Below, piece by piece: positions 27,068-39,676 of a stretch of DNA of 64,000 bases. Every line of letters begins with the position of its first letter. Positions within the stretch are counted from its first letter, which is position 1. Under the pieces are notes generated by a model. The model was not told where the DNA came from and did no database searches. It was given only the letters and a program-made list of their open reading frames with translations. The translations under genes and the position numbers were made by a program. The stretch is from Methanoplanus endosymbiosus (lineage in GTDB: Archaea; Halobacteriota; Methanomicrobia; Methanomicrobiales; Methanomicrobiaceae): contig NZ_CP096115.1 in assembly GCF_024662215.1 (NCBI RefSeq), positions 620,001-684,000 of the forward strand, read 5' to 3'.

Positions 27068-29152
27068 ATGAAAGTTACTATTAAAGAGGCACGTCCGCGT
27101 GACGTTGGAAGAGCCATAGCCCGTATAAATCAGGAAATAATGGCAGAACTGGGTCTGAACACGGGGGACATCGTTAATATTAAAGGAGGACGCTCTGCCT
27201 ATGCCAGGACACTTCCTGCATATCCGGAAGACGGGATGGACGGCAGCATTCAGATAGACGGCATAATCAGGACCAACATAAAATCAGGAATCAATGAGAC
27301 CGTCACTCTTGAAAGAACAGAAATACCGCCTCTTGACATGGCAGTACTAAAACCACTTGAATCAACATCCGGAAAAGACATTGACTGTAGCCTTCTTTCA
27401 GGATACCCGCTTCAGAAGGATGACATGGTAAGACTTGCTGTTTTTGGAAGGCAGATCACATTTCATATTGAGGATGCCCATCCGGACGCAGGAGTGGTTA
27501 ATGAAAATACCATAATCAGAATCAGAGGGCAGACATCTAAAGAACCGGAAAAAAAACGCGGTTTCACATCATATGAAGATATAGGCGGTTTAAGGCCGCA
27601 GCTGCAAAAGATCAGGGAGATGGCAGAACTCCCACTCAGATATCCGGAACTCTTTGAAAAGGTGGGCATAGATCCGCCAAAAGGTGTTCTTCTCTACGGC
27701 CCTCCGGGAACAGGCAAAACCCTGATTGCAAAAGCGGTTGCAAACGAAGTCAATGCCCATTTCATCTATATATCCGGCCCTGAAATCATGGGTAAATATT
27801 ACGGTGAATCCGAAGGTAAACTCAGGGAGATCTTTTCAGAAGCAAAGAAAAATGCTCCGGCTGTAATTTTTATTGACGAAATTGACAGTATAGCGCCTAA
27901 AAGAGAGGAACTTGGCGGGGAAAAACAGGTAGAGAAGAGAGTTGTGGCTCAGCTTCTCGCATTGATGGACGGAGCACAGAAGAGAGGGCAGGTTATGGTA
28001 ATAGCCGCAACAAACATGCCAAACCTTCTCGACCCGGCCCTCAGAAGACCCGGAAGATTTGACCGTGAGATTGAGATAGCAATACCTGACAGAGACGGGC
28101 GACAGGAAATATTTGAAATACATATGAGAGGCATGCCAATAGAGGACGATGTCGCAATAGAAGAGATCGCCTCAGCCACACACGGATATGTCGGTGCAGA
28201 TATAGCAGCACTGTGCCGTGAGGCTGCAATGTGTGCACTCAGAAAAATTCTGCCTGAGATTGACTTTTCACAGGATTATATTCCATACAGTATTCTCTCC
28301 GGACTTGTAATCACAAATGATGACATAAATTCAGCAATGCTTGAAGTCAGGCCTTCTGCCCTTCGCGAGGTATTTATTGAGAGGCCTGATGTAAAATGGA
28401 GCGATGTAGGCGGGCTTTCGGAGATAAAGGAGAAAATAAAAAACCTGGTTGAACTTCCGGTTAAGAGGCCCGGATTATACCGTTATGCAGGAGTTAATCC
28501 TCCGAAAGGCATAATGATGCACGGCCCTCCCGGTACAGGAAAGACCCTTATTGCCAGAGCAGTTGCAGGAAAAACAGGGTCAAATTTCATATCTGTAAAA
28601 GGGCCGGAGATATTCTCAAAATATCTCGGCGAATCTGAAAAAACAATCAGGGAAATATTCAGAAAGGCCAGAATGGCTGCGCCGTGCATAATTTTCTTCG
28701 ATGAAATTGATGCCATTGCACCGGCAAGAAGTGCAGGTGAGGCCAATGGGAATGCAGACCGGGTTATTTCTCAGCTCCTCATAGAGATGGACGGCATTGA
28801 AGAGTTAAAAGGAGTAATTGTTCTTGCAGCCACAAACCGGCCCGATATTATAGACTCTGCTCTCATGCGTCCGGGAAGATTTGACTTTGTACTGGAACTG
28901 CCTCTGCCGGACGAAGATGCAAGAACTGAAATTCTAACAATACACCTTAAGAATAAGCCTTTAGCCGGCAATATATCTATTAATTCTCTGGCCGGCCGGA
29001 CAGAAGGATTTTCAGGTGCAGAACTGGAGTTCATATGCAAAAATGCTGCTCACCTTGCAATTAAAGAATTTGCAGGCGGTGATGATGAATTGGACAATCT
29101 AATAATCCGGGAATCTCATTTAGACTCTGCATTAAGCGAGATAAGAAAATAA
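27068..29152 (+). CDS. CDC48/VCP-type AAA ATPase of the gas vesicle cluster
   Basis: The 694-residue hexameric unfoldase-type ATPase has an N-domain (residues 1-155, VTIKEARPRDVGRAIARI, double-psi barrel), then two AAA modules. D1 has Walker A GPPGTGKT at 211-218 and Walker B VIFIDEIDSIAP. D2 has GPPGTGKT near 485 and Walker B IIFFDEIDAIAP, with Arg fingers in RRPGRFD and MRPGRFD. It is somewhat shorter than canonical archaeal CDC48. It starts directly after the regulator stop and precedes gvpA. Being in the gas vesicle operon, it is inferred to disassemble or quality-control Gvp aggregates; a second housekeeping CDC48 probably exists elsewhere in the genome. Confidence 0.93.
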   Translation: MKVTIKEARPRDVGRAIARINQEIMAELGLNTGDIVNIKGGRSAYARTLPAYPEDGMDGSIQIDGIIRTNIKSGINETVTLERTEIPPLDMAVLKPLESTSGKDIDCSLLSGYPLQKDDMVRLAVFGRQITFHIEDAHPDAGVVNENTIIRIRGQTSKEPEKKRGFTSYEDIGGLRPQLQKIREMAELPLRYPELFEKVGIDPPKGVLLYGPPGTGKTLIAKAVANEVNAHFIYISGPEIMGKYYGESEGKLREIFSEAKKNAPAVIFIDEIDSIAPKREELGGEKQVEKRVVAQLLALMDGAQKRGQVMVIAATNMPNLLDPALRRPGRFDREIEIAIPDRDGRQEIFEIHMRGMPIEDDVAIEEIASATHGYVGADIAALCREAAMCALRKILPEIDFSQDYIPYSILSGLVITNDDINSAMLEVRPSALREVFIERPDVKWSDVGGLSEIKEKIKNLVELPVKRPGLYRYAGVNPPKGIMMHGPPGTGKTLIARAVAGKTGSNFISVKGPEIFSKYLGESEKTIREIFRKARMAAPCIIFFDEIDAIAPARSAGEANGNADRVISQLLIEMDGIEELKGVIVLAATNRPDIIDSALMRPGRFDFVLELPLPDEDARTEILTIHLKNKPLAGNISINSLAGRTEGFSGAELEFICKNAAHLAIKEFAGGDDELDNLIIRESHLDSALSEIRK

Positions 29153-29308: not shown

Positions 29309-29518
29309 ATGGTAGAAAAAATGAATTCATCCTCAAGCCTTGTGGATGTTGTGGACAGAATCCTTGACAAGGGAGTTGTAGTTGATGCATGGGTTCGCGT
29401 ATCCCTTGTAGGAATTGAACTGATAGCTGTTGAAGCCCGTGTGGTAATATCATCAGTTGAAACATGGATTAAATATGGAGAGGCAGTAGGGCTTCTTGCC
29501 GAGGAAGTTGCGGCATAG
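29309..29518 (+). CDS. gvpA: Gas vesicle shell protein GvpA
   Basis: The 69-residue protein has the complete GvpA sequence pattern: [20 protein letters not shown], then [19 protein letters not shown] and [13 protein letters not shown]. GvpA polymerises as the rib-forming wall of the gas-filled vesicle. The size matches the family norm (about 70-76 residues), with the short C-terminal tail AEEVAA. A hairpin and a strong ribosome binding site lie upstream. It is the first structural gene of the cluster, followed 32 nt later by the GvpC-like gene. Confidence 0.98.
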
Positions 29519-29550: not shown

Positions 29551-30759
29551 ATGACTATTTTTGAGGATATGGCTCTTTTGCGTGGGGAAATTAATCTTGA
29601 ATCAGAATACAGACGTGAACTGGCCATCAACAGAAAAGAAGAAGCAGAGATCAGAAAAGAAGAAGCAGAGAACAGAAGGAAAGAGACTAAACTAATGATC
29701 TCCGGAATTTCGGCTGAAAGGAAGGAGAAAGGAGAGGCACTAAAAGAAGAGATGGTTCAGGTAAAAAAACGGTTAAAGAGTGATGTAAAAGAGTCCAGGG
29801 ACAGAACGGAAAATCTTATTGAATGTTTTAACTCTGAAAGGAAGGAGAAAGGAGAAGCACTAAAAGAAGAGATGACTCAGGTAAAAAAACGTTTAAAGGG
29901 TGATGTAAAAGAGTCCAGGGACAGAACGGAAAATCTCATTGAATGTTTCACCTCTGAAAGAAAGGAAAACAGAAAAATTATGATGAAAACTCTAAAAGAG
30001 GACTTGTCTGACTTAAGGAATAACATCAGAAATTTTGAAAAAGAGACAAGAGAGATGATAAAAGGGGTTTCGGATAACAGGAAGGATGAAACCGAAATAT
30101 TAAGAACAAATCTTAAAAACGAGAAAATTCAGCTCAAAAAAGAGGCTGCAGAAGAGAGAAAATCAATCCGGGAAAATCGCATCAGCATTTCAAAAGCATT
30201 GATGGAAGACATCTCAGAGAGATTAAAAGATATATCGGTATCAAACTCAGAGCTAAAAGATTACACTCATAAACTGTTAAATGACGCTAAAACTGAACTG
30301 GATGGTTATAATAACGAAAGAAGCCGGATGCATAATGCCTGGATAAAAAATACAGCATATGACATTTCAGAAGATTCAACAGACATTCAGTACAGCCACG
30401 GTGGAGAGACCGGCCCTCCGGAAGTAAAAATTCAGGCAGAAATCGCCGTACAGGAGATTAACATTCCTGAGCCAAAAACAGCTTCAGATACTAAAGATCC
30501 AAAGAATGTGACAGTTGATGAAGCCGAACTATCAGATGATGAGATGAGCAGTTTAGACTCCGAAGAAATTCATGAAAGCGAATTTGAGAATTTAACCGGA
30601 AAAATATACGATGCAATTCAGAATTCAGGCAACGGAGTTTCTCTGAGAGATATTGGAGATAAACTCGATATTGAATGGAGGAAACTGATCCGCCCTGCAA
30701 AGAAACTGCTTGACGAAGAGTCGATTAAAAAAATAGATGTCAATTACTTTCCTGCCTGA
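29551..30759 (+). CDS. Coiled-coil repeat protein, GvpC candidate, with C-terminal winged helix
   Basis: The 402-residue protein lies exactly where gvpC does in haloarchaea. It is highly charged and helical, with 40-residue periodicity: MISGIS at 49, LIECFN at 89, LIECFT at 129 and MIKGVS at 169. Two consecutive 40-residue units (55-94 and 95-134) are almost identical at DNA level. GvpC strengthens the vesicle by lying across GvpA ribs, and such repeats suit that. No sequence match to known GvpC can be claimed. The last 60 residues (LTGKIYDAIQNSGNGVSLRD, KLDIEWRKLIRPAKKLLDE) form a winged-helix-like domain not known in GvpC. An acidic linker separates the two parts. Confidence 0.7.
   Translation: MTIFEDMALLRGEINLESEYRRELAINRKEEAEIRKEEAENRRKETKLMISGISAERKEKGEALKEEMVQVKKRLKSDVKESRDRTENLIECFNSERKEKGEALKEEMTQVKKRLKGDVKESRDRTENLIECFTSERKENRKIMMKTLKEDLSDLRNNIRNFEKETREMIKGVSDNRKDETEILRTNLKNEKIQLKKEAAEERKSIRENRISISKALMEDISERLKDISVSNSELKDYTHKLLNDAKTELDGYNNERSRMHNAWIKNTAYDISEDSTDIQYSHGGETGPPEVKIQAEIAVQEINIPEPKTASDTKDPKNVTVDEAELSDDEMSSLDSEEIHESEFENLTGKIYDAIQNSGNGVSLRDIGDKLDIEWRKLIRPAKKLLDEESIKKIDVNYFPA
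29713..29952 (+). repeat. Two 120-bp tandem repeats inside the GvpC candidate
   Basis: Bases 29713-29832 and 29833-29952 are near-identical (GAAAGGAAGGAGAAAGGAG at each start). They encode 40 residues each, show only a few substitutions and keep frame. The next unit is diverged. This points to recent duplication. Confidence 0.9.
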
Positions 30760-30841
30760 GCAGGAGATTAATTTTAAGCCAAAACGGACAGGATGATAAT
30801 ATCCTGCCCAATTTCTGATTTTGAGGGGAAAGCTGATTATA

Positions 30842-31786
30842 ATGGTTTCAAAAACAACAACAGGAAAAGAGAAAGTCACAGTCATCAATCCCAGGCAGAC
30901 AAAAGGTTTTGTTCATACAGAAGCTATAAATTTACTGGCAAAAAGGGGACTGAGATATCTTAATGCAGGCTACCCAATACATTATTCCGGGCCGACAGGG
31001 TGCGGAAAAACAACCCTTGCCATGCATGTCGCATCCCTGCTCAATCGTCCGGTCATTCTTATAAATGGTGATGACGAATACAGCACATCGTCATTTATAG
31101 GAGGGGAGCAGGGTTATCGTAAGCATATGGTTGTGGATAAGTTTGTATCAAGAGTTACAAAAGTTGACGAATCATACAAAAAACAATGGGTCGATGAAAG
31201 ACTTACAGCAGCATGCAGGTATGGATTCACACTGATCTACAACGAATTTACACGATCAAGGCCGGAGGCAAATAATATACTTCTCTCGGTTCTTGAAGAG
31301 AGAGTACTTCCAATACCGGGGATGGCAAGCCGTACAAACAGCAGCAGTTTTTTAAAAGTTCATCCTGACTTTTCAGCCATTTTTACGAGCAATCCTGAAG
31401 AATACGCCGGAGTTTACCGCTCACAGGATGCCCTCATTGACAGAATGATAACTCTGGATATGGATTATTACGACAAAGAGACAGAAATTGCGATAGTAAT
31501 GGCAAAATCCGGCCAGTCATATCATGATGCAGACATAATTGTAAAAATTATAAGAAAACTCAGGGATTCTGATTTATGTGAATTTCCGCCAACATTGCGG
31601 TCATCAATAGTTATAGCAAAGACAACCTCAGGCGTTAACGATGAATCATTCAGAGAAGTATGCCTTGATGTTCTTTCACGAAAAATCGGTCTTGATAATG
31701 AAAACGGACTGAAACCTGAAATTGTCATTGATGACATTTTTAATGACATATTTAAGGAAGAAAAAACTGTGCCGGATTTAAGGTGA
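30842..31786 (+). CDS. gvpN: Gas vesicle AAA ATPase GvpN
   Basis: GvpN is a MoxR-type AAA ATPase needed for normal vesicle growth. The 314-residue protein shows Walker A GPTGCGKT (residues 50-57), the family segment GDDEYSTSSFIGG, and EFTRSRPEANNILLSVLEE. The Walker B strand reads LIYNEF, with Asn134 where most members have Asp, while the catalytic Glu135 is kept. ATG 30842 is chosen because GAGGGGA precedes it at 30821-30827; the upstream TTG is the first codon of the open frame. It follows the GvpC candidate as in haloarchaeal gvpACN. Confidence 0.95.
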   Translation: MVSKTTTGKEKVTVINPRQTKGFVHTEAINLLAKRGLRYLNAGYPIHYSGPTGCGKTTLAMHVASLLNRPVILINGDDEYSTSSFIGGEQGYRKHMVVDKFVSRVTKVDESYKKQWVDERLTAACRYGFTLIYNEFTRSRPEANNILLSVLEERVLPIPGMASRTNSSSFLKVHPDFSAIFTSNPEEYAGVYRSQDALIDRMITLDMDYYDKETEIAIVMAKSGQSYHDADIIVKIIRKLRDSDLCEFPPTLRSSIVIAKTTSGVNDESFREVCLDVLSRKIGLDNENGLKPEIVIDDIFNDIFKEEKTVPDLR

Positions 31787-31792
31787 ACAGGT

Positions 31793-32167
31793 ATGTGCAC
31801 AAGAGTAAAATCAAGCCTTGATATTATCAGGAAAAATGGAGTGAACTGCAGGACGAAATACAGAGAAAAACGGGTAAAGGATGAAATTGTAGAGAAATTC
31901 GGGGAAATTACAATTCCTGAGAAACAATACAGAAAAATAATGAGACAGGATGCAAACCACAAAAAAAAGATGGAAAAGATGCAGAAATCCCTTATGAAGG
32001 CATTTCAGCAGAAGGAAAAGGCACGCCTGATTCAGAAATTAAGGAATGAAAAAATCCCAAAAACAGAATCTTCAGCAGATAAATTAAAATCTGAGAAAAA
32101 AGGAACGAATTCTCTAAAAGAATCAGATGAAACAGGTGTTTTTGATGAGATCGAGATTGGATACTGA
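31793..32167 (+). CDS. Small basic coiled-coil protein of the gas vesicle cluster, unknown
   Basis: The 124-residue protein is strongly basic and helical: IRKNGVNCRTKYREKRVKDE, then KKKMEKMQKSLMKAFQQKEK and an acidic end (DETGVFDEIEIGY). It starts seven bases after gvpN, with AGGT before the ATG, and ends in or near the start of gvpF. No family is recognised. It occupies the gvpO position of haloarchaea but lacks GvpO features, and the true gvpO is at 33278. A GvpI-like role (small, basic) is a guess. Confidence 0.65.
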   Translation: MCTRVKSSLDIIRKNGVNCRTKYREKRVKDEIVEKFGEITIPEKQYRKIMRQDANHKKKMEKMQKSLMKAFQQKEKARLIQKLRNEKIPKTESSADKLKSEKKGTNSLKESDETGVFDEIEIGY

Positions 32168-32186
32168 AGAGAAGAATGACAGTGGC

Positions 32187-33014
32187 ATGTCATCTGAGAG
32201 AAGGTCAGATAAGAGATCAGGCCGGAAAAAAACAGCCGGAACTTTTGGAAACTCTATGAGGCATTCATCCAAAAAATCACCAAAAAGTGCCTCATACAGA
32301 TATGTTTACTGTATAATACCCTCAGAATCTGCCGGAAATCTGCCGGAGATAACCGGCATTGACGATACTGAAATCAAAGCACTGTCACGCAAAAAAGTCT
32401 GTGCTGTAGTTTCTGAAACAAAAGATAAGAAACATGAGATTCTTGACAACGGAGTGATGCACCAGTCAGTGGTTGAGGAAGTTTTGAAATATTCACCCCT
32501 GATCCCTATGGGATTTGGACAGATCTCATCAGAAGTGTCCATATTATCATTTCTGGAGAAGAACAGCTACCGCCTCGGTCTTCTGATGCAGCAGTACTCC
32601 GGAAAGAGAGAACTTGTCTTAAAGGCATCATGGAAGATGGATCAGGTTTTAAAGGACCTGTGTGATTCTGATGACCAGATAAGAATAATGCATAACCATC
32701 TGAACCGGAAGGATGACCTTAAAAATCACAGGATGAAGATTAAAATAGGACAGAAGGTATCAGATTCCATAGATAGAAGAAGTGACAGTACAGGAAACGA
32801 ATTTCTGAAAAAATTAAAACCCTTCTCTGACAGAGTAAAAATTAATAAAAACCTCAACAATGATATGTTTTTAAATGCAGCATTTCTTGTGGACAAAGTT
32901 TATGAAGAAAATTTTGATCTGGCAGTCAATGATCTTGAAGATAAATACTCAGAAACCGTCAGTTTAAACTATACTGTGTCAGCACCATATGATTTTATAA
33001 ACCTAAGACTATGA
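32187..33014 (+). CDS. gvpF: Gas vesicle protein GvpF/GvpL family (first copy)
   Basis: GvpF/L proteins are minor assembly factors that bind GvpA. The family core is present: YRYVYCIIP, then a second half with SPLIPMGFGQ, KRELVLKASWKM, NAAFLVDKVYEENF and the C-terminal VSAPYDFINLRL. Start choice is uncertain. ATG 32187 avoids overlap with the preceding gene and ATG 32127 overlaps it by 41 nt. ATG 32256 (MRHSSKKSPK) best matches the N-terminus of the second copy at 36249 (MRTTAKKRIN). The extra N-terminal stretch is Ser/Arg/Lys-rich. It is followed by gvpG, as in Halobacterium. Confidence 0.93.
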   Translation: MSSERRSDKRSGRKKTAGTFGNSMRHSSKKSPKSASYRYVYCIIPSESAGNLPEITGIDDTEIKALSRKKVCAVVSETKDKKHEILDNGVMHQSVVEEVLKYSPLIPMGFGQISSEVSILSFLEKNSYRLGLLMQQYSGKRELVLKASWKMDQVLKDLCDSDDQIRIMHNHLNRKDDLKNHRMKIKIGQKVSDSIDRRSDSTGNEFLKKLKPFSDRVKINKNLNNDMFLNAAFLVDKVYEENFDLAVNDLEDKYSETVSLNYTVSAPYDFINLRL

Positions 33015-33042: not shown

Positions 33043-33273
33043 ATTGTATTAATTGTTGATGACATCCTTAAAATTCCGTTTACAATTGGCATGAAAGTCT
33101 TAGAAGAGATATCAGCACAGGTGGATGATGAGCTGCTCTTATCTGAAGAGTCCATCAGAAAGAAGATAATTGAAATACGCCTTGAGTATGAGAACGGAAA
33201 TATTAATCAGGAAGATTACAGTCAGATAAACAGAGACCTAAGAGAACGCCTTGCAGCTGCAATGCAGGACTGA
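33043..33273 (+). CDS. gvpG: Gas vesicle protein GvpG, probable ATT (AUU) start
   Basis: GvpG is a small helical assembly factor. The conserved GvpG beginning (VDDILKIPFTIG) lies upstream of the first ATG (33091), so a start there would delete it. The frame contains no ATG, GTG or TTG in this stretch. A perfect GGAGGT (33031-33036) sits six bases before ATT 33043, giving (M)VLIVDDILKIPF and a 76-residue protein of family length. The remainder (GMKVLEEISAQ, SIRKKIIEIRLEYENG, QEDYSQINRDLRERL) fits GvpG. It lies between gvpF and gvpO, and the ATT start is inferred. Confidence 0.8.
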   Translation: MVLIVDDILKIPFTIGMKVLEEISAQVDDELLLSEESIRKKIIEIRLEYENGNINQEDYSQINRDLRERLAAAMQD

Positions 33274-33277
33274 GAAT

Positions 33278-33553
33278 ATGAAACTAAACCAGATTATTGA
33301 GAATGCCAAAATAAACACCTCAGAATTTACGGGCATGCCCATAAACTCACTTACAGGTATGACCAGAGATCCGGAGACGAAAAATCTCAGACTTGAGATC
33401 GAACTTCTTGAGAAGAGAGGCATACCCGACTCAATGGATCTTTTAGGCATTTACGAAGTTCTTGTAGATGAAGAAGGGGACATATGTGAACTGTCAAGAA
33501 CAGGAATGAGAAAGAGAGGGGATACGTCAATAGAACAGATTGAGGAATATTAA
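33278..33553 (+). CDS. gvpO: Gas vesicle protein GvpO
   Basis: The 91-residue protein carries the GvpO signature in its second half: LRLEIELLEKRGIPDSMDLL, then GIYEVLVDEEGDICELSRTG and a final KRG. GvpO is required for vesicle formation in haloarchaea, perhaps as a regulator of gvpA expression or as an assembly factor. ATG 33278 starts five bases after the gvpG stop. In Halobacterium gvpO lies with gvpACN; here it is embedded between gvpG and gvpJ. Confidence 0.88.
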   Translation: MKLNQIIENAKINTSEFTGMPINSLTGMTRDPETKNLRLEIELLEKRGIPDSMDLLGIYEVLVDEEGDICELSRTGMRKRGDTSIEQIEEY

Positions 33554-33581: not shown

Positions 33582-33950
33582 ATGCTTGAAGCACAAAGGA
33601 GCAATTCTCCGGCATCACTTGTTGATGTAATTGACCGGATTCTTGACAAAGGTCTGATCATTAATGCTGACATCACTGTATCCATTGCCGGAATAGAACT
33701 GCTTGGAATTAGTCTCAGGGCATCGGTTGCATCATTTGAAACGGCAGCAAAGTACGGCCTCAGCTTTCCGGCCGGGACAGATTTTAATAAACCTGCATGG
33801 GATAATGCAATCGTTGAAAAAGAGACATGCCCACAATGCGGTAAAACTGTTCCTGTCGAGGAGTTACTAAATGAGAGCTGTCCCTGGTGCGGCTGGGTAA
33901 GTGCGAAGGCAAACGGCAGGAATATGCTTGATGATGGAAGCAGAGCGTGA
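33582..33950 (+). CDS. gvpJ: Gas vesicle protein GvpJ with C-terminal zinc ribbon
   Basis: Residues 8-70 match GvpJ, a GvpA paralogue involved in nucleation: SLVDVIDRILDKGLIINADI, VSIAGIELLGISLRASV and SFETAAKYGLSFPAGTD. That last block is diagnostic for J rather than A or M. Residues 80-106 then form a zinc ribbon, with C83xxC86 and C100xxC103 (KETCPQCGKTVP, NESCPWCGW). I do not know such a domain from characterised GvpJ, which ends in an acidic tail. The gvpM gene overlaps its 3' end by 17 nt in another frame, so the two are translationally coupled. Confidence 0.93.
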   Translation: MLEAQRSNSPASLVDVIDRILDKGLIINADITVSIAGIELLGISLRASVASFETAAKYGLSFPAGTDFNKPAWDNAIVEKETCPQCGKTVPVEELLNESCPWCGWVSAKANGRNMLDDGSRA

Positions 33951-34506
33951 AAGCAAAGCAACTCTTGTAGATCTGCTTGACCGGATTCTTGATAAGGGTG
34001 TGATAGTAAATGCCGATGCAATAGTTTCACTGGCCGGCATTCCACTGATTGCAATTCAGTTAAATGCACTTGTGGCAAGTGTTGAGACAATGCTTTCATA
34101 CGGCATGTGGCATGACTGGGACTCGGCCATCCGTGCCTCAGCAAGAGAAAATCACAGACAGAACGCCGGATTACTACCTTTTTCACAGAATGATGATGAG
34201 ATATTAATCTCAGAATTTCCCGGTTCATACTGGTATAGTAACGGAATCTCAGGTACATGGAAGAGCGGAAAAATCCGCCTGACTGATAAGAGAATACTTC
34301 ACTACAGGGCCAGACCTCCGGAAATGTTTATGGACATAAAACATGAGGACATCATATCAGTCAGAATTAATGAGGAAGCTGACAGAGGCAATATAAATGC
34401 ACGGCATATTGATATCAGGCTTAAAAACGGGAGAACTGTGAATATTATCGCATCCGAAATAATGCTTAAAAAAGGCTTTTCAGATCTGACAACTACCCCG
34501 GACTGA
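33934..34506 (+). CDS. gvpM: Gas vesicle protein GvpM fused to a GRAM/PH-like domain
   Basis: Residues 8-70 match Gvp[33 protein letters not shown], and SVETMLSYGMWHDWDSAI, the last like the TMTEYG...EWD ending of haloarchaeal GvpM. Residues 87-180 are a beta-rich domain of GRAM/PH type (EILISEFPGSYWYSNG, GKIRLTDKRILHY, IKHEDIISVRINE, HIDIRLKNGRTVNII). Known GvpM is only about 84 residues. The fusion suggests that the nucleation protein carries a lipid- or protein-binding module. The start at 33934 (or 33931) follows AGGA and overlaps gvpJ. Confidence 0.88.
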   Translation: MEAERESKATLVDLLDRILDKGVIVNADAIVSLAGIPLIAIQLNALVASVETMLSYGMWHDWDSAIRASARENHRQNAGLLPFSQNDDEILISEFPGSYWYSNGISGTWKSGKIRLTDKRILHYRARPPEMFMDIKHEDIISVRINEEADRGNINARHIDIRLKNGRTVNIIASEIMLKKGFSDLTTTPD

Positions 34507-34794: not shown

Positions 34795-35796
34795 ATGGCA
34801 GGCAATGGACTTCTAAAACAGGATTTTGAGAGAATAATTCAGGATTCACAGACTAAACTGATTATTTTTGGCGGAAAAGGAGGGGTTGGAAAGACAACCT
34901 GTGCCTCCGCAGCATCAGTTAATCTGGCAGAGAAGAAAAAGAAAGTTCTGCTGATATCTTCTGATCCTGCTTCGTCAGTATCTGATATATTTCAAAGAGA
35001 GATCGGCGGTGAAATTACAGAGATCAATGAATATTTAAGTGCTGTTGAGATTAAACCGGAACAGTTTTCAGAAGAGTTCCAGAGCACCTATGGTGATCTC
35101 TTCTATAAAATAATATCATCCATAATTCCGGTGAAAAAAAGTGATACAGAGATAATTCCGGACGAGATAGCACCCGGAGTTGAAGAGCTGTTTCTTCTGG
35201 CATATATCATGAATATGCTTTCTGAGGATTATGATGCAATAGTCCTTGATACCGCACCAACCGGTCATACCATGCGTCTTCTTCATCTTCCTGATCAGAT
35301 TGGAAAGTACGCAAAGGCCGGAATTACCCTTAATTCTAAAATATCGGGTAAAATTGACACCATAAAAGTCTGGTTTGACATGGATACATCTGAGGATATT
35401 CTCAAAAATACTTTGAATGAACTTCTGTCATCAGTTGAGTCTATAAAGAATGTGCTTATAAATCCGGACATTACAGAATTTATTCCTGTTATGATCCCCG
35501 AATTTCTCTCAGTCTCTGAAACAGTGAGACTTATTAATGAACTGGATCTGAATAAAATACAGGTTAAAAGGCTGATCATTAATGGCATCACTCCTCAAAA
35601 CAACTGCATCTTCTGCGGTAAAAGAAGAAAAATGCAGAAGAAGTACATTGATGAGACAATAGATAAATGCGGGTCAAAAATGCAGATAATAACCGCACCA
35701 TTATTTCCGGAAGAGATTGCAGGTATAAATTCAGTGGCAAAGTTTGCATCCGAAATTTTTCCGGGAGATGAATCTGCCATTGATCTGCTGCAGTGA
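34795..35796 (+). CDS. Get3/ArsA-family ATPase in the gas vesicle cluster
   Basis: The 333-residue protein is a deviant-Walker-A P-loop ATPase: GGKGGVGKTT at 26-35, switch I SSDPASSVSDIF at about 55-66, switch II LDTAPTGHTMRLLHLP at 151-166, and the dimer-bridging C271xxC274 pair of Get3 (CIFCGKRRK). It lacks the duplicated half of bacterial ArsA, so it is Get3-like. Get3 shields hydrophobic tail-anchored proteins. In this operon the inferred client would be aggregation-prone GvpA/J/M or another Gvp. No arsenite-resistance genes are nearby, which argues against an arsenic role. Confidence 0.93.
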   Translation: MAGNGLLKQDFERIIQDSQTKLIIFGGKGGVGKTTCASAASVNLAEKKKKVLLISSDPASSVSDIFQREIGGEITEINEYLSAVEIKPEQFSEEFQSTYGDLFYKIISSIIPVKKSDTEIIPDEIAPGVEELFLLAYIMNMLSEDYDAIVLDTAPTGHTMRLLHLPDQIGKYAKAGITLNSKISGKIDTIKVWFDMDTSEDILKNTLNELLSSVESIKNVLINPDITEFIPVMIPEFLSVSETVRLINELDLNKIQVKRLIINGITPQNNCIFCGKRRKMQKKYIDETIDKCGSKMQIITAPLFPEEIAGINSVAKFASEIFPGDESAIDLLQ

Positions 35797-36248: not shown

Positions 36249-37007
36249 ATGAGAACTACTGCAAAAAAAAGGATAAATACAGCACGTTACAAGTATGTAT
36301 TCTGTATTATTGCGAACCGGAAAAATTATTCTTTTGTGATGAATGACAGGGAGAAAAAAGAGATCTACTCCATTCATTATAAGGATATATCTGCCGTTGT
36401 TGCTGATGCCTGGTCTGAAAAGTACGAAATACTTGATGACGGAATGGTACATGAAAAAGTTGTGGAGACTGCCTCTAAGCATTTCCCGGTAATTCCTATG
36501 GGTTTTGGACAGGCATCAACTGAGGAGGACATAAAAGCATTTTTAATGAAAAATTACGCGGCCATTAAAAAATTATTCAGAAACCTTAAGGGTAAGACTG
36601 AACTTGGGGTCAATGTCTCACTGAATGAAAAAAAACTTATTGAGGATATATACAATGAAAATGAAAAAATACGTATTTTCTCAGCCGGAATTAAGGATCA
36701 AAACGATAAATTAAACCATAACATAAAGATTAAAATCGGCAGAATTGTTTCAGAAGAGTTTGATAAGAAAGGAAATAAGATTGCAGAGGATTTTTACAGG
36801 AGTCTTAAGAATATTGCTGATTCAGATATAAAATGCCGGAGCATAAACAAACTGATGGTATTAAACAGTGCATTTCTGGTTGAGAATGATAAAATACCGG
36901 AGTTTGACAGAGTACTGAGCGATATGGAGAATAAATACGGAGATGCGGTAAATATCAGGTATATTATTTCTCCGCCATACAATTTCAGTAATCTCAGAGT
37001 AAGTTAA
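36249..37007 (+). CDS. Gas vesicle protein GvpF/GvpL family (second copy)
   Basis: The 252-residue protein is a close paralogue of the copy at 32187, with the same landmarks in the same order: RYKYVFCIIA, HFPVIPMGFGQAS, GKTELGVNVSLNEK, NSAFLVENDKIPEFD and ISPPYNFSNLRV. It has a GGGTT ribosome binding site before ATG 36249. Having two such proteins plus the divergent one at 38006 suggests separate F and L functions. Which copy corresponds to GvpL cannot be settled by eye. Confidence 0.92.
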   Translation: MRTTAKKRINTARYKYVFCIIANRKNYSFVMNDREKKEIYSIHYKDISAVVADAWSEKYEILDDGMVHEKVVETASKHFPVIPMGFGQASTEEDIKAFLMKNYAAIKKLFRNLKGKTELGVNVSLNEKKLIEDIYNENEKIRIFSAGIKDQNDKLNHNIKIKIGRIVSEEFDKKGNKIAEDFYRSLKNIADSDIKCRSINKLMVLNSAFLVENDKIPEFDRVLSDMENKYGDAVNIRYIISPPYNFSNLRVS

Positions 37008-37158: not shown

Positions 37159-37689
37159 ATGGAAGATAAAGAGAAAAAAGAGAGTGAAAATTCAGAAGAA
37201 AGTACGGATAAAAACATTGTTGAAGAGACGATTGACCAGATAATGCCCGGACTTGGAAAGCTTGTAAACAGGCTGAAACTGACTGCACCGGAACTTGAAA
37301 GCAGACTTAATGAAGCAGATATTGAAATTAAAAAAAGAATTCAGGATGGTTATTCAGGAAAGCCAAAGGTATCCTACAGCTATAATATAAGAACTCTGTC
37401 GCAGGAGAGCAGAGTTAAATCACCGGAGAGGAAAAAAGAACCCGGTTTTACTGAACCGGTTGTCGATGTCATAAAATATGACAATTCTGTCAGGGTTATA
37501 GCTGAGCTTCCCGGAGTTACAGAGGATGAGATTAAACTGGAGATCAAGGAAAAATCCATAAATCTTGAGGCAAAAAGCAGTTCAAGAAGATACCGTAAGA
37601 TAATTCCTCTCCCCGGCAGAGTTGCACTTATTGAACAGAGATTCATTAACGGAATTTTTGAAGCAAATTTTGAGATGACAGATGACTGA
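37159..37689 (+). CDS. gvpH: Gas vesicle protein GvpH, Hsp20-like
   Basis: The 176-residue protein has an acidic, charged N-terminus, a helical stretch (VEETIDQIMPGLGKLVNRL) and a C-terminal alpha-crystallin-type domain (PVVDVIKYDNSVRVIAELPG, EDEIKLEIKEKSINLEA, INGIFEANFEM). This is the layout of haloarchaeal GvpH, which acts as a chaperone for vesicle proteins. A strong GGAGGGGG ribosome binding site precedes ATG 37159. The N-terminal extension is longer than in a plain Hsp20. gvpK follows 11 nt after the stop. Confidence 0.9.
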   Translation: MEDKEKKESENSEESTDKNIVEETIDQIMPGLGKLVNRLKLTAPELESRLNEADIEIKKRIQDGYSGKPKVSYSYNIRTLSQESRVKSPERKKEPGFTEPVVDVIKYDNSVRVIAELPGVTEDEIKLEIKEKSINLEAKSSSRRYRKIIPLPGRVALIEQRFINGIFEANFEMTDD

Positions 37690-37700
37690 GATTATTCAAA

Positions 37701-38009
37701 ATGGCCCTTGATATAGACGAAGATAATCTTAAATCAGGCATTCTGGGAATAGTTATAGCTGTAATTGAGATTGTACGTGACGCAATAAGGATTCAGGCTA
37801 TCAGACGGATGGACTCAGGCAGACTGACTGACGATGAGATAGAACGTCTTGGACAGGCACTTATGGAACTTGATATTGCAATTGAAGAGATAAAAGTGGA
37901 GCATGATCTTACTGACACGGTTTCGGAGATTCGTAATGGTCTTGATGATCTTGTCGATGATCTGCTCAATCAGATATTAAATCCGGAAATTCCTGAGGAG
38001 ATTAGATGA
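37701..38009 (+). CDS. gvpK: Gas vesicle protein GvpK
   Basis: The 102-residue protein has the GvpK pattern: LKSGILGIVIAVIEIVRDAI, IQAIRRMDSGRLTDDEIERL, GQALMELDIAIEEIK and the end VSEIRNGLDDLVDDLLNQIL. It is an essential or growth-affecting minor assembly factor. Its stop overlaps the next start in an ATGA arrangement (38006-38009), so GvpK and the following GvpF/L are coupled. Confidence 0.95.
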   Translation: MALDIDEDNLKSGILGIVIAVIEIVRDAIRIQAIRRMDSGRLTDDEIERLGQALMELDIAIEEIKVEHDLTDTVSEIRNGLDDLVDDLLNQILNPEIPEEIR

Positions 38010-39676
38010 GAAATAATAATTCGGATGGCCGGCCAGGCGGCGATAATTGTCCTGATAATGAGACGCATAATAACAGCAGTAATTGTCCTGAAGATTATTC
38101 TGATAATTATGATTATTCAGCAGAAGGGAGAATGTTAAAAGAAATTATCTCCCGGACTGTCAGAGAAGAGATGCAGAAATCCTTTGATGAGATAAAAACT
38201 GAAATCATTGAGATCGTCCGGAAAGAATCAGCTGCTCAGCTCCGGGCATTAATACAGAAAACCTATTCATCAGCCGTAAATGAAGGTGAGAGGTCAAATC
38301 CGGAAAAGACTGAAAAATCTGAAGAAATAATAAAATCTGAAAAAATAAAAAAATCTGAAGAAATAGAAAAAATTGAAAAAAATAAGATAAAAGAGATCAA
38401 TGAGAAATTTAATCGGGTACTGAATGCAGTGCATGAGACTGATGCACTGAAAGATATGAATTTTATCTCCAGAAGCGAGGATATCCCAGAAGATAATCCG
38501 GTCATCTTTTCGGGTATAAATTCAGTAAATAAATCAGACAATAAGGGCACTGACGGCAATATCAGCAGAAAAAATGAATATGTCTCAACAAATGATGATT
38601 TTAATAATAACATATATCTCACTGACAGCCGTGTAAACAGCAGTAAAGACGGGAATAAGGGTTTAAATCCGGAAATCGTATCAGATGATGAGAATATAAA
38701 TGCTGATGATCATATAAAAACTGATGACGATATTACCGGACCTTATGACAAGAATATAAATGCCGAGAATATTACCAAATCTGATTCTGAAAATATAAAT
38801 ATTAATGACAGTACAGCCATCGACAATAACAACAACAATAACAACAACAATAACAACAACAATAACAACAATAATAATTATAATAGCAATAATAATGGAA
38901 ATAATAATAAAGAAGCTCTGTACCTGTATGCAATAACCAACCGGCAGGATAATTTTAATCCTGGAAATATTGGCATTGAAGAAAGTTCAGTGTACACCAT
39001 ACCACTTGACAATCTCCCGCTTACAGCAATTGTGCATAAATGCAGTGAGGAACCTTACCAGAGTGACAATCAGGAAACTGTAACAAACTGGGTAAATACC
39101 CACCAGAATGTTATTGATAAGGCCATTGAGAGATATGAGACAGTACTGCCATTTGGATTTGACACAATTATATGTGGCACAGATCTTCAGTATTCTGAAG
39201 AAGTTCTGAAAGACTGGCTTGCAGATGAATATCATTCACTGAAGAAGAAACTGGATTTTTTAAGTGGAAAAAAAGAGTATGGAATCCAGATCTTCTGTAC
39301 GCCTTCAGCCCTCACCGGCAACCCTGAAGATAATGAAGAGATTATGAAAATCAGAGAAGAGATTAAGAATAAAGGTGCCGGCGCTGAGTATATGTACAAT
39401 AAAAAAATAGAGCAGATCAACGAGAAGATCCGGGGTGAAAAACTTGTTTCGCTCTCAGATGAATATACAGATAAAATAGAGAGTATCTCATCCGCAGTAA
39501 AGGTGGATAAATGCAGAAAATCAAACGATTCTGAAAAAATAATGCTGCTTAATCTCTCATGCCTGGCGGATGATAATGATTACAAAAAAATTGGGGACTT
39601 TTTAGAAGAGATCTCAAATAAAGATGGATACTTTGTCCGTTTCACAGGGCCGTGGCCCGCATATTCATTTGTCTGA
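38006..39676 (+). CDS. gvpL: Gas vesicle protein GvpF/GvpL family (third copy) with long Asn-rich linker
   Basis: The 556-residue protein is about twice the usual GvpL length. Residues 1-30 are Asn-rich. Residues 35-130 form a charged coiled coil with KSEE/KSEK repeats, and residues 130-300 are a low-complexity Asn/Asp linker including about 18 consecutive Asn. Only the C-terminal 255 residues are the GvpF/L domain (EALYLYAITNRQ, ETVLPFGFDTIICG, KKEYGIQIFC, LLNLSCLADDNDYKK, FTGPWPAYSFV). The last motif, GPWPxYSF, is the classic GvpL ending and is not shared by the other two copies. The linker may tether the assembly factor flexibly. It ends the cluster. Confidence 0.92.
   Translation: MRNNNSDGRPGGDNCPDNETHNNSSNCPEDYSDNYDYSAEGRMLKEIISRTVREEMQKSFDEIKTEIIEIVRKESAAQLRALIQKTYSSAVNEGERSNPEKTEKSEEIIKSEKIKKSEEIEKIEKNKIKEINEKFNRVLNAVHETDALKDMNFISRSEDIPEDNPVIFSGINSVNKSDNKGTDGNISRKNEYVSTNDDFNNNIYLTDSRVNSSKDGNKGLNPEIVSDDENINADDHIKTDDDITGPYDKNINAENITKSDSENININDSTAIDNNNNNNNNNNNNNNNNNNYNSNNNGNNNKEALYLYAITNRQDNFNPGNIGIEESSVYTIPLDNLPLTAIVHKCSEEPYQSDNQETVTNWVNTHQNVIDKAIERYETVLPFGFDTIICGTDLQYSEEVLKDWLADEYHSLKKKLDFLSGKKEYGIQIFCTPSALTGNPEDNEEIMKIREEIKNKGAGAEYMYNKKIEQINEKIRGEKLVSLSDEYTDKIESISSAVKVDKCRKSNDSEKIMLLNLSCLADDNDYKKIGDFLEEISNKDGYFVRFTGPWPAYSFV
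38825..38878 (+). repeat. AAT/AAC microsatellite coding for poly-Asn
   Basis: Three perfect 12-bp units AATAACAACAAC are followed by degenerate AAT/AAC codons, all in frame. The repeat could change length by slippage in multiples of one codon, altering only the linker of the GvpL protein. Confidence 0.9.

Follow-up and report, generated by a model that had tools for sequence, protein, structure and literature searches.

A predicted PH/GRAM-type domain on the gas vesicle protein GvpM of Methanoplanus endosymbiosus and its occurrence in other methanogens and bacteria

The nucleation of gas vesicles is an open question (PMC10903477), and the closest described counterparts of the protein analyzed here are the early-acting minor proteins GvpM or GvpS and GvpJ (PMC9501494, PMC11445434, PMC10903477). 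GvpL is the main binding partner of haloarchaeal GvpM, which can do without its last 20-25 residues, and proteins of the A-J-M family aggregate when produced alone (PMC9501494). The interaction between GvpA2 and GvpL requires Bacillus GvpS together with GvpK and GvpJ; GvpS tolerates fusions in all configurations and remains, like GvpJ, in purified bicones (PMC11445434). In the methanogen Methanothrix thermoacetophila, Mthe_0071 is identified as gvpM, is transcribed and changes with the neighboring gvp genes (PMC10470525).

The gvpM gene and its cluster

The window, that is, the whole stretch of 64,000 nucleotides of the M. endosymbiosus genome that was analyzed, carries a complete-looking gvp cluster in the order gvpA, AAA ATPase, gvpF/L, gvpG, gvpO, gvpJ, gvpM, arsA-like, gvpF/L, hsp20-like, gvpK and gvpF/L (Table 1). 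The gene of interest is therefore found in the company of A, J, K, F/L, G, O and N, as expected of a gvpM. It is a single intact ORF without internal stop, running from an ATG at 33934 to a stop codon at 34504-34506, and its start overlaps the 3' end of the preceding gvpJ, whose product bears a zinc ribbon (CPQCGK..ELLNESCPWCGW). An alternative GTG at 33901 would give 201 residues, but the ATG is preferred because close relatives start (MEA/MEP...) at the equivalent position. Three further genes of this region are worth recording: a CDC48-like double AAA ATPase directly upstream of gvpA (27068-29152), a candidate GvpC of 402 residues with coiled-coil repeats that are nearly identical (ERKEKGEALKEEM), encoded between gvpA and the AAA ATPase gene (29551-30759), and a GvpF/L-like protein in which a long extension at the N-terminus includes a poly-asparagine run (38006-39676).

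Table 1. Features of the gvp cluster in the window and PH-bearing proteins of other gvp loci (positions in other loci carry the locus label)
Feature	Position	Strand	Evidence
gvpA, major shell protein	29309..29518	+	PF00741
AAA-type ATPase, gvpN candidate	30821..31786	+	as query, finds gvpN position in other clusters
gvpF/L	32127..33014	+	PF06386, E 2.6e-42
gvpG	33091..33273	+	PF05120, E 1.4e-6, just below cut-off
gvpO	33251..33553	+	PF05800, E 1.5e-13
gvpJ with C-terminal CPxC..CPWC zinc ribbon, adjoins gvpM upstream	33582..33950	+	NCBIfam GvpJ, E 2.4e-27
gvpM-PH gene, 190 aa (coordinates include stop codon)	33934..34506	+	ORF; start of relatives at the same ATG
GvpM (A-J-M family) domain, residues 1-67	33934..34134	+	NCBIfam NF046091, E 7.9e-22; Pfam Gas_vesicle (PF00741), E 6.4e-15
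Predicted helix 58-78, joining GvpM fold to C-terminal domain	34105..34167	+	AlphaFold2 model
Predicted PH/GRAM-fold domain, about residues 85-185	34186..34488	+	predicted structure and fold comparison; independent profile, 58.5 bits
ArsA/Get3-family ATPase gene, next downstream of gvpM	34795..35796	+	PF02374, E 9.1e-76
gvpF/L, second copy	36249..37007	+	PF06386, E 4e-41
Hsp20-like, gvpH candidate, without PH domain here	37159..37689	+	PF17886, E 0.003; phmmer matches hsp20 position elsewhere
gvpK	37701..38009	+	PF05121, E 2.7e-20
Bacterial GvpH-like proteins: PH domain(s), middle region, Hsp20-like domain	L072:6069-7082, L091:9311-10312, L057:4686-5960, L052:6523-7947		
Stand-alone PH-like proteins of bacterial gvp clusters, 140-160 aa	L091:62-535, L068:3969-4388, L086:6692-7129		

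The best NCBIfam model for the N-terminal part is that of GvpM, matched over positions 1-67 of 67 and ahead of those of GvpA (E 8.5e-15) and GvpJ (E 2.2e-12). The curated cut-off of this model (109 bits), which like the model itself is labeled haloarchaeal, was not reached by the window protein (76.8 bits), nor by the Methanothrix and bacterial forms tested. The AlphaFold2 model has an H-E-E-H (alpha-beta-beta-alpha) arrangement in this part, at low confidence there, and a tree of A-J-M domains places the protein within a GvpM clade of 103 rows. The identity given by the original prediction is upheld by the best model, the tree placement and the Methanosarcina-like clusters, in which a PH-bearing gvpM follows gvpL as in haloarchaea. 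Its statement that known GvpM proteins have about 84 residues holds for the haloarchaeal protein (PMC9501494) and fails for the family, since 57 of the 103 distinct GvpM rows, a set enriched for long forms by the long query, bear the PH domain.

Predicted fold and conservation of the C-terminal domain

The last 100 or so residues are beta-rich. Pfam and NCBIfam searches with this part alone gave no match above cut-off; the Pfam scan of the whole protein gave weak sub-cut-off matches for it, Vps36 GLUE among them, and listed no match to GRAM (PF02893, cut-off 23.6 bits). An earlier AlphaFold2 model from four sequences was weak overall (pLDDT 60), while the run with 58 homologues (alignment A2) predicted, for residues 90-182 and mostly at pLDDT 82-95, seven strands (90-101, 108-117, 120-125, 130-136, 140-147, 157-163 and 168-173) and a C-terminal helix (175-182). 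This prediction has the hallmark of the PH superfamily, a seven-stranded sheet pair capped by a C-terminal helix. Moreover, PH-superfamily structures dominate the top Foldseek lists, and VIA-align 2 ranks the myotubularin PH-GRAM domain first (Z 11.8, rmsd 2.7 A, 97 residues aligned), with BBS5, the Btk PH domain and Vps36 GLUE close behind.

Profile evidence from the homologues points the same way. Matches to the Pfam PH clan, mostly weak, occur throughout the 58 homologues (bPH_3 in 24, Vps36 in 16, GRAM in 15 and PH in 7), and one full-length homologue (L061) exceeds the Pfam cut-offs for both GRAM (25.3 vs 23.6 bits) and Vps36 (31.2 vs 24.1 bits). The only significant PDB match of a PH-only profile was BBS5 (E 7e-9), through both of its PH repeats, which are weak singly (i-E 0.006 and 0.06). 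In the genome of M. endosymbiosus itself, this gene was the sole significant match of the PH profile, and the GRAM model gave two sub-cut-off matches, both to other genes. The predicted structure and these comparisons support a second domain of PH/GRAM type at the level of fold, one that by cut-off falls outside Pfam GRAM; the original prediction of a beta-rich GRAM/PH-type domain, for which structure prediction and a fold search had been proposed as the check, is thus borne out.

The domain is also conserved across distant lineages. The profile built from bacterial loci only scored 58.5 bits on the extension, where the best of 200 shuffled sequences reached 5.0; a profile built without the window protein and its Methanomicrobiales relatives scored 63.7 bits, and over these tests the best shuffles reached 5.0 to 6.3 bits. 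Between related methanogens, compared in pairs that do not include the window species, dN/dS of the PH part ranged from 0.09 to 0.43 and that of the GvpM part from 0 to 0.24; the PH domain is therefore under purifying selection in these other methanogens and evolves faster than the GvpM part. Across the family, the loop between beta1 and beta2 is conserved and hydrophobic or aromatic (YSxGIYxAW) and W109 is conserved, while the window protein differs at two further conserved PH positions, Y106 and Y115 (with serine in place of Y106).

Distribution and evolutionary history

A GvpM-only profile (A3) found the gene in 53 of 393 Halobacteriota genomes. When families were assigned by us as haloarchaeal or other, as inferred from gene content, the PH domain was present in 18 of the 20 sampled non-haloarchaeal genomes having GvpM; two of these 18 hold a long and a short copy together, and the two genomes with short GvpM only both belong to the Methanophagales group. 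In the haloarchaeal families, the match of the A1 alignment ends where the GvpM part ends. The phylum of Desulfoluna has GvpM in 12 of 395 genomes, in six frames of 208-378 residues and six of 75-101, so that about half of the sampled Desulfobacterota with GvpM have the long form. GvpM followed by one PH domain is found in methanogens and some bacteria, the same with a zinc ribbon in Desulfobacteraceae, and GvpM with two PH domains, with or without the ribbon, in Methanophagales, Chloroflexota, Actinomycetota, Thermodesulfobacteriota and others. These taxon names are labels of metagenome bins, some of them doubtful, since a contig labeled Candidatus Nitrosotalea shares its gvpM-PH ORF with a genome of the window's own phylum, G359 (L049 and L020). 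The sole sampled genome of the same genus (G025) had no GvpM match, which indicates that the gvp cluster is patchy within the genus.

A scan of genomic contigs with the single sequence found no relatives and the alignment-based scan did find them; IMG/VR viral contigs gave none. The profile search suggested for other methanogens was thus widely successful, and the view of GvpM-PH as an unusual fusion did not hold. A search of the open literature gave no paper combining "gas vesicle" with "GRAM domain" and nothing relevant for the PH domain, subscription-only papers lying outside this search, and to our knowledge GvpM-PH is a widespread, apparently undescribed architecture of a known protein and not a one-off. 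A described gene appears to encode it: in one genome (G267, contig 1), hsp20, gvpF/L, gvpO, gvpN and four gvpA genes are followed by gvpG, gvpJ, gvpM-PH, gvpK and gvpF/L, and by this gene order its gvpM-PH matches Mthe_0071 (Table 2 of PMC10470525). Since that gene is transcribed, the PH form is not a silent gene.

The tree of 182 A-J-M domains (63 columns, midpoint-rooted, many forks weak) has all 57 PH-bearing rows inside the GvpM clade (support 100/100), and the domain is absent from the 68 GvpJ and 11 GvpA rows. The short haloarchaeal forms of GvpM nest with the PH-bearing ones of methanogens (97/87), and their genes occupy the same place after gvpL as the PH-bearing gvpM of Methanosarcina-like clusters. 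Additionally, a short GvpM of the Methanophagales group (L092:2913-3212) ends in VEGEEVVQKEKM, which corresponds to the first residues of the second PH domain in a relative (L019) and looks like a PH-domain remnant. Because of the nesting, the shared place and this remnant, loss of the domain is apparently the simpler reading for the haloarchaeal and L092 short forms, as far as a midpoint-rooted tree of 63 columns can tell. On this reading the short GvpM of haloarchaea, the form known from laboratory work, is probably a reduced one.

Possible roles and comparison with known systems

The original prediction proposed that the domain ties the nascent gas vesicle to membrane lipid or to a partner protein. 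We favor the partner, and consider it an even prospect that the two-domain GvpM is a minor shell or nucleation protein whose PH/GRAM domain docks the nascent vesicle to assembly partners. The GvpA-like part would enter the first turns or the conical tip of a new vesicle, and the PH/GRAM domain would face the cytoplasm; the early role of GvpM and GvpS, the tolerance of fusions and the presence of GvpS in bicones suggest that it should be displayed on the cytoplasmic face of the nucleus or tip. From there it may dock the nucleus onto the GvpL/F platform, the Hsp20-like GvpH, the ArsA/Get3-like ATPase or another zinc-ribbon or PH Gvp protein, and could in this way concentrate aggregation-prone A-J-M subunits at the growth site. 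Haloarchaeal and other short GvpM forms would have lost the module.

The modules themselves recur in one assembly pathway, which suggests protein docking. A zinc ribbon is present in 58 of 68 distinct GvpJ rows and in 27 PH-bearing GvpM rows (CPxC...CxxCGW, of GvpJ type, on the long bacterial forms) and in no PH-less GvpM. The PH module is found on Hsp20/GvpH-like and stand-alone proteins of bacterial gvp clusters as well (Table 1; the one stand-alone protein scanned has no NCBIfam name), which points to specific recognition. Counted among loci gathered with a PH-bearing query, and ignoring phylogeny and contig ends, a further PH protein accompanies 17 of 26 clusters with PH-GvpM vs 3 of 17 without, and ArsA 29 of 39 vs 7 of 34. 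The arsA gene adjoins gvpM in the window, in Methanoregula and in two Methanophagales-group loci (L028/L029). Get3 relatives are chaperones of hydrophobic segments and, by analogy, this ATPase may handle A-J-M proteins; that it is a required partner found no support as a rule, several PH-GvpM clusters being without ArsA in the stretch read (L140-L147). Against docking speak the haloarchaeal GvpM that works without a PH domain and can also spare its last 20-25 residues, the replacement of Y106 and Y115 in the window protein, the faster evolution of the PH part, and the methanogen clusters read, where no second PH protein lies beside GvpM.

A membrane tether is unlikely but the strongest alternative. 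The domain would then bring the forming nucleus to the cytoplasmic membrane, either by binding the head groups of lipids or by inserting its beta1-beta2 loop. This reading would fit the best structural matches, which are the PH-GRAM domains of lipid phosphatases with BBS5 and Vps36 GLUE close behind, the hydrophobic loop, which could serve docking or lipid binding, and the tandem PH domains of many bacteria, which would raise avidity. However, the family alignment lacks a conserved basic cluster in the beta1-beta2 region, the signature of phosphoinositide binding, and the mean net charge of the domain across the family is -1.4 +/- 3.2, near-neutral to acidic, on which grounds phosphoinositide binding was rejected and the lipid half of the proposed function loses ground; the missing signature weakens, rather than eliminates, lipid binding as such. 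Moreover, the loop aromatic is missing in the window protein, the same module occurs on a chaperone-like protein, and the ligands of eukaryotic PH domains are not known to include the lipids of archaea and bacteria.

Less probable again is a domain that has no specific partner and serves chiefly to hold the very hydrophobic GvpM part in solution before it is assembled. The aggregation of A-J-M proteins made alone (PMC9501494), the faster evolution of the PH part and its loss in some lineages agree with such a solubilizer, but dN/dS stays below 0.5 throughout, the loop and W109 are conserved, and the presence of the module on further Gvp proteins argues for specific recognition. It is a rather improbable extension of these ideas that nucleation was ancestrally tethered, PH/GRAM domains on GvpM, GvpH-like and stand-alone proteins forming a recruitment system dedicated to this task in prokaryotes, which positioned the nucleus at one fixed place in the cell, on the membrane or a scaffold, and was lost in the main laboratory models. 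A sequencing frameshift joining gvpM to an unrelated gene, the artifact against which the original prediction had cautioned, is practically negligible, as the same in-frame fusion occurs in dozens of independent genomes and the bacterial-only profile recognizes the extension.

Docking to assembly partners thus remains our preferred reading. No mechanism has been assigned to GvpM/GvpS and GvpJ, minor shell proteins that are essential, and the PH domain offers a new handle on vesicle initiation: a putative docking domain on the GvpM of most gas-vesicle-bearing methanogens and many bacteria can serve as bait for the missing partner, and gives those who engineer gas vesicles a natural site for C-terminal fusions.

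Among known structures, the myotubularin domain (MTMR2, PDB 5gnh/1lw3) shares the predicted fold, at about 15% identity and in the different context of a lipid phosphatase. BBS5 of the BBSome (PDB 6xtb) has tandem PH domains, as do the bacterial GvpM proteins with two, although it is a subunit of a eukaryotic ciliary coat, unlike GvpM. Vps36 GLUE and Pfam bPH_3 and GRAM recur below threshold in the homologues, and the window protein passes none of their cut-offs. Among gas vesicle proteins, Bacillus GvpS is likened to GvpM here by its literature description as an early assembly factor, not by sequence. Haloarchaeal GvpM (84 residues) is the closest counterpart by fold, best model and clade (100/100). 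In haloarchaea, however, gvpM follows gvpL, whereas in the window it follows gvpJ, and the haloarchaeal forms read are without the PH domain, whereas the window GvpM has 100 extra residues that are predicted to form a second folded domain.
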